Origin: Roseibacillus persicicus
Lineage (GTDB): Bacteria; Verrucomicrobiota; Verrucomicrobiia; Verrucomicrobiales; Akkermansiaceae
DNA length: 64,000 nucleotides
Direction of reading: 5' to 3'
Assembly: GCF_014651675.1 (NCBI RefSeq)
Contig: NZ_BMXI01000014.1
Location: forward strand, 1-64,000
The notes beneath the pieces were generated by a model, which was not told the origin of the DNA, searched no databases, and saw only the letters and a list, made by a program, of their open reading frames with translations. Shown piece after piece: positions 60,911-61,022 of this stretch (position 1 is its first letter; every line of letters starts with the position of its first letter). Both the position numbers and the translations under genes were made by a program.

Positions 60911-61022
60911 CGCCGCGCTGAGAATGCGCTCGTAGCTCAATTGGATAGAGCGCCTGACTACGGATCAGGAGGTTAGGGGTTCGACTCCCTTCGAGCGTGC
61001 TCTCAGCGTGGCGGATTTTTTT
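60911..61022 (+). terminator. extended stem around tRNA-Arg ending in a T tract
   Basis: Leader CGCCGCGCTGAGA (60911-60923) pairs with trailer TCTCAGCGTGGCG (61001-61013) over 13 bp with one G-T pair, outside the acceptor stem. A run of eight T (61015-61022) follows. It may act both as terminator and as a processing signal. Confidence 0.75.
60926..60999 (+). tRNA. tRNA-Arg (anticodon ACG)
   Basis: A complete cloverleaf of 74 nt including the discriminator base. The acceptor arms GCGCTCG and CGAGCGT pair with one terminal G-T. The anticodon arm is CCTGA-CTACGGA-TCAGG, giving anticodon ACG (wobble A would be edited to inosine to read CGT, CGC and CGA). The T arm is GGGGTTCGACTCCC-like. CCA is not encoded. 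The gene is flanked by arms able to extend the acceptor stem by 13 bp. Confidence 0.97.

Follow-up and report, generated by a model that had tools for sequence, protein, structure and literature searches.

The tRNA-Arg(ACG) gene of Roseibacillus persicicus lies between a leader and a trailer that can form a covarying 14-bp helix followed by a T tract, and this leader-trailer structure is real and conserved. It was found in a stretch of 64,000 nucleotides (the window, i.e., the whole DNA that was analysed). On balance we favour the reading that the tRNA is nested in a leaky intrinsic terminator, of which it would be the loop, that this terminator feeds rpsA, and that the precursor is opened by RNase III and/or RNase P. 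Within this reading the terminator is likely, the link to rpsA plausible and regulation speculative; termination, read-through and processing are all what we infer from the sequence.

Anatomy of the tRNA-Arg(ACG) locus

The features of the locus are the following:

60875-60902, forward strand: sigma-70-like promoter (TTGACA 60875-60880, 16-nt spacer, TATTTT 60897-60902), from a consensus scan
60910-60923, forward strand: leader, 5' arm of the 14-bp helix, from pairing and a four-species alignment
60924-60925, forward strand: A(-2)U(-1), adjoining the expected RNase P site, invariant in the four Roseibacillus genomes
60926-60999, forward strand: tRNA-Arg(ACG), from ARAGORN and Rfam RF00005; CCA not encoded
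61001-61014, forward strand: trailer, 3' arm of the 14-bp helix, from pairing and a four-species alignment
61016-61023, forward strand: T8 tract, from the sequence; a T-rich tract is kept in the four Roseibacillus genomes
61032-61075, forward strand: pseudoknot-like rpsA leader element, from pairing and recurrence in leaders
61132-62850, forward strand: rpsA, ribosomal protein S1, 572 amino acids, named from its repeated S1-type domains

The preliminary description had placed a tRNA-Arg inside a leader-trailer pairing, and this was confirmed by ARAGORN (span 60926-61000), by Rfam RF00005 (60926-60999, 65.6 bits, above the cut-off; cloverleaf with anticodon ACG) and by the pairing of the flanks. 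The helix had been given as 13 bp with one G-T pair and eight T; the wobble and the T count stand, while the length is actually 14 bp. The helix is mostly G-C with G60915-T61009 as its sole wobble, and it is separated from the acceptor stem by an A60924/C61000 mismatch and a U60925/G60999 wobble and from the T tract by A61015. From the -35 and -10 boxes the transcript would start around 60909, about 7 nt past the -10 box, and thus near the first paired base as had been proposed.

Ordinary intrinsic terminators behind tRNA genes consist of a G-C-rich helix with a short loop and a T tract and lie wholly downstream of the gene. The stable G-C-rich helix and the T tract at its 3' base are common to both, whereas in Roseibacillus the loop is the tRNA itself: 77 nt lie between the arms (the tRNA and three bases next to it) and not a few nucleotides, which makes this a non-standard form. 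The earlier proposal that one long helix serves as terminator agrees with the sequence (14 bp, mostly G-C, T8), and termination itself is predicted on this ground. In an unconstrained fold, a rod (-61.8 kcal/mol) is about 5 kcal/mol more stable than the helix with a cloverleaf inside (-56.9 kcal/mol). However, the isolated tRNA is biased to the same extent (-29.9 vs -25.0 kcal/mol), and the rod preference of the whole fold therefore says little.

The genome has 46 tRNA matches, and tRNA-Arg(ACG) is the only ACG among the 46 flank sets analysed. According to ARAGORN, CCA is encoded at the end of 38 of the 46 tRNAs and absent from tRNA-Arg(ACG). A dense tRNA array with very tight spacing and some low-scoring members was also seen in this genome (L062, G000:C3:101200-104000), which perhaps sits on a mobile element.

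The flanking helix is exceptional for the genome. Its leader-trailer duplex reaches -30.9 kcal/mol, against -14.6 kcal/mol for the best of the other 45 tRNAs and -24.2 kcal/mol for the strongest among 2070 mismatched leader/trailer pairings, and the whole fold has a z of -5.1. When both flanks were shuffled by mononucleotides a 14-bp helix arose in 3 of 200,000 cases. The count of contiguous pairs is less clean, as one of the 2070 mismatched combinations also reached 14 bp, and therefore energy and conservation carry the argument. A structure-only covariance model, in which varied tRNAs were given random 12-bp arms and T7, likewise puts the window tRNA first in its own genome (92.2 vs 75.7 bits). 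By duplex energy and by this model it is the sole such tRNA among the 46.

Conservation of the helix and its recurrence

The genus search covered all four Roseibacillus genomes, and all 14 pairs stand in each of them (56 of 56 cells). Three double changes were found (C-G to U-A, C-G to G-C and G-C to A-U) at the pairs 60914:61010, 60918:61006 and 60922:61002, all of them in one genome (G011), and two further pairs vary by G-U. When the partners were slid by one to three columns, pairing dropped to 34-55% with no double change, and for the structure as a whole a covariation score as high as the observed one arose in 2 of 500 column shuffles. All four genomes share the mismatch at -2, the wobble at -1 and the -35 box TTGACA without change. 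The comparison of the flanks in close relatives, proposed earlier as a check, thus shows the helix kept with compensatory changes. Chance complementarity would be conceivable as leader-trailer matches of up to 10 bp occur in other tRNAs of the family, but shuffling reached 14 bp as rarely as stated above and the conservation with double changes refutes it. Given the shuffles, the genome-wide duplex energies and the covariation, chance was rejected as having next to no probability.

In the wider family a match was obtained in 94 of 97 genomes; 90 of these 94 loci were retrieved, of which 89 contain the gene by ARAGORN and 87 have full flanks. Among these 87 loci the four Roseibacillus are the only ones below -20 kcal/mol, the next one being at -15.3 kcal/mol.

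The sister genus (g9) has a shorter version of the helix. A match was present in 26 of its 27 genomes, with Arg-ACG in 25 loci, and CCA is encoded in all 25. The g9 leader (ACGCGAA or a variant) lies opposite the trailer (TTCGCG or a variant) and pairs over 5-8 bp in 22 of the 25 loci (at least 5 bp in 22, at least 7 bp in 12), while three (L157-L159) have no leader-trailer helix of 5 bp. A helix of at least 5 bp together with at least five T in the adjacent 8-nt stretch is found in 20 of the 25. No double change was seen in the leader-trailer helix of these loci. The g9 trailer can alternatively pair downstream; in all 25 loci 13 or more of its initial 18 nt can do so. In L135-L159 (trailer plus about 60 nt) the downstream arm often repeats the ACGCGAA of the leader, making two exclusive structures possible. 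The function of the short g9 helix is uncertain. Judging from the two genera, the Roseibacillus branch seems to have lengthened the helix and lost the encoded CCA.

Similar tRNAs were searched for with the covariance model. In a scan of the phylum (387 genomes, nine candidates scored in each) at least 25 genomes pass 1e-18, and on inspection of the 25 passing ones at least seven have a helix of at least nine pairs beside at least four T:

window and G011: Arg-ACG, Roseibacillus
G189: Trp, 11 pairs with a bulge
G363: Pro, 12 pairs
G205: Asp, 10 pairs
G464: Pro, 10 pairs, one mismatch
G390: Thr, nine pairs

G154 (Pro) has a 10-bp helix with a poor T tract, and the other 17 passing genomes have high-scoring tRNAs without a clear case, some within tRNA arrays. 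In a second phylum (that of G479, reached through a contig with the title Deltaproteobacteria; 395 genomes, nine candidates each) at least 15 pass the same threshold. Here one doubtful case was found, a tRNA-Val (L321) with a 10-bp helix near a T tract, which is not clean because a further tRNA follows. As nine candidates were scored per genome, the incidences from both large scans are lower bounds. When 98 candidates each were scored in 39 genomes, five passed: the window, G154 and three others in which no clear case was seen. Similar tRNAs for Trp, Pro, Asp and Thr are thus present in five other genomes of the phylum, and by these model-based searches the arrangement recurs.

Conservation of the Pro-TGG helix could not be shown: in family f31 it is present in two of eight genomes (G363 and G154) and absent from their same-genus neighbours. 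Leader-trailer helices of 10-12 bp without encoded CCA were observed in three tRNA-Pro genes of other families, at L243 and L248 (tRNA-Pro TGG, both about 2 kb from the contig start) and at L247 (tRNA-Pro GGG). That the helix is tied to the loss of an encoded CCA was considered and dropped, as no rule emerged. CCA is absent from the four Roseibacillus genes and three Pro cases, the nested Trp, Asp and Thr cases retain it, and among the family loci 17 of the 21 Arg-ACG genes without CCA have no such helix.

The tRNA ahead of rpsA

The preliminary description had mentioned neither the gene downstream of the tRNA, which is rpsA without a consensus promoter in between, nor the conservation of the wobble and mismatch at A(-2)U(-1) in all four Roseibacillus. 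We take the product of 61132-62850 to be ribosomal protein S1 from its repeated S1-type domains. Its homologues in Verrucomicrobiales records are 74-96% identical, with 96% in Roseibacillus ishigakijimensis (L185) and in an uncultured Roseibacillus sp. (L165). In each of the four Roseibacillus genomes, and in 23 linked loci of the sister genus, rpsA comes after the tRNA on the same strand.

The promoter ahead of the tRNA matches the consensus at 10 of 12 positions and is the sole promoter-like hit in 60300-61200. In all 27 same-strand loci the best promoter lies upstream of the tRNA (score 9-11), and in 26 of them the TTGAC(A/G) promoter has the top scan score. No consensus promoter beating shuffles was detected between tRNA and rpsA in any of the 27 (p at least 0.295). 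In this light the tRNA seems to sit within the 5' untranslated region of rpsA, with the helix as a putative gate. With the only consensus promoter on one side of the tRNA and rpsA, preceded by its conserved pseudoknot-like leader, on the other, the helix probably governs how much transcription continues into rpsA. It would also have to be opened, by RNase III or RNase P, for the tRNA to be released.

The helix could instead be a plain strong terminator that isolates tRNA-Arg, with rpsA transcribed from an unrecognised promoter of its own and the two genes unlinked. Such a terminator would be ordinary for a stable RNA gene, and promoters here can depart from the consensus: likely rpsA promoters in other genera score just 8-9, and a non-consensus promoter could escape the scan. 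However, none of the 27 intervals holds a consensus-like site, and the pseudoknot-like element, which begins 8 nt past the T tract, leaves little promoter room before it. We therefore consider this explanation rather unlikely. Sites like TTGATT-16-TAGGTT precede the rpsA leader where the tRNA is on the opposite strand. This orientation, with tRNA-Arg beside rpsA, was observed in several loci, some of them titled Roseibacillus, for example in the metagenome-assembled L187, L189, L190 and L231, and suggests a local inversion.

The pseudoknot-like element consists of a stem P1 (61032-61039/61056-61063) and a loop GCCCC (61047-61051) that pairs with GGGGC (61071-61075). Verrucomicrobiales rpsA leaders (L165-L240) have a variable but paired P1 and a loop such as UUGGAGCCCC, in which GCCCC pairs with a downstream GGGGC. 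An automatic search gave a candidate in 51 of 75 rpsA leaders, with the loop pairs GCCCC:GGGGC in 38, ACCCC:GGGGU in four, GCUUC:GAAGC in three and wobble variants in three; the other three look spurious (GTTTT). In a scan of seven loci against Rfam the element had no match with an E of 1 or less. It is possibly an S1 autoregulatory leader.

The palindromic flanks had also been considered as an integration (att) site for mobile elements, as the 3' ends of tRNA genes are common integration sites. This proposal found no support. The tRNA with its flanks gives one match genome-wide, the window contains no further copy of the tRNA 3' end, rpsA and no mobile element lies directly downstream in the four Roseibacillus and the sister genus, and the arms vary together in the manner of base-paired RNA, in which G-U is tolerated. 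The integration target was rejected as very improbable.

A tRNA as the proposed loop of a leaky terminator

According to the favoured reading, once the polymerase is at the T tract leader and trailer would pair and enclose the folded tRNA, and the majority of transcripts would end there. The resulting short precursor would be closed by a stack of about 22 pairs (14, the wobble and seven) with one A/C mismatch. Some transcripts would read through into the rpsA leader and the S1 gene, so that the helix would also set the supply of S1 mRNA. The precursor could be opened by RNase III in the helix and/or by RNase P at the A(-2)U(-1) gap. The 3' side would then be trimmed to G73, followed by addition of CCA, which is needed because none is encoded. 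Special processing of this tRNA, as already proposed in the preliminary description, is plausible.

For E. coli RNase P, A(-2)U(-1) is optimal and pairing of the leader with RCCA slows cleavage, according to excerpts of PMC9433436. Both the A(-2)/C mismatch and the U(-1).G73 wobble are invariant, as would fit a need for an open RNase P cut site. Extended acceptor stems of E. coli pre-tRNAs, as described in parts of PMC9433436 and PMC10731613, resemble the present case in that the leader pairs with the 3' flank. However, there one or two pairs with RCCA are formed, whereas Roseibacillus has 14 pairs beyond the A/C mismatch and no encoded CCA.

A stretch of about 22 near-continuous pairs is of a length suited to RNase III, and the gene for this enzyme is present in the genome. 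The leader-trailer stems of 16S and 23S rRNA are RNase III sites in a long operon and are not known to be followed by a terminator T tract. As in these pre-rRNAs (excerpts of PMC10250234), sequences on both sides of a stable RNA pair here into a long enclosing stem. The helix may therefore be mainly a processing device, like these flanking stems or the RNase III sites behind metY of E. coli, whose transcripts are cut by RNase III (excerpts of PMC6511841 and PMC5371410); the cut would release the tRNA out of a longer transcript, and termination would be incidental. However, RNase III does not need a T tract directly behind the helix, yet such a tract has been retained throughout the four Roseibacillus and occurs, with a short helix, in 20 of the 25 g9 loci, and we give this explanation a low probability.

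The metY-nusA-infB operon is the closest described system. In the same excerpts a tRNA heads an operon of translation genes, with terminators before the first protein gene and excision by RNase III. In E. coli the interval from metY to rimP contains the terminators and the RNase III sites, and several promoters are present, whereas in Roseibacillus the tRNA leader is an arm of the helix, the tRNA is inside it and one promoter was seen. A tRNA nested in its own terminator helix was not found described in titles and abstracts of openly licensed PMC articles.

Some points speak against the leaky-terminator reading. It draws on four Roseibacillus genomes with the double changes confined to G011, the consensus scan may have missed an rpsA promoter, and the g9 trailer also pairs downstream, with three g9 loci having no 5-bp helix. 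A further idea is that the helix acts as an attenuator for rpsA, in which the folding speed of tRNA-Arg or its processing by RNase P would choose between termination and read-through and so couple S1 to tRNA maturation, with the alternative g9 pairing as a switch and repeated origin within the phylum; this appears doubtful.

If the helix works as in the leaky-terminator reading, one short sequence would be both tRNA leader and terminator arm, and tRNA processing and termination could then not be independent. The locus would also offer a natural system for RNase P on a long extended acceptor stem, and its placement ahead of rpsA would make a link between tRNA and S1 levels directly testable. 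As terminator scans seek short loops, the recurrence of the arrangement suggests that they may miss it in this phylum.
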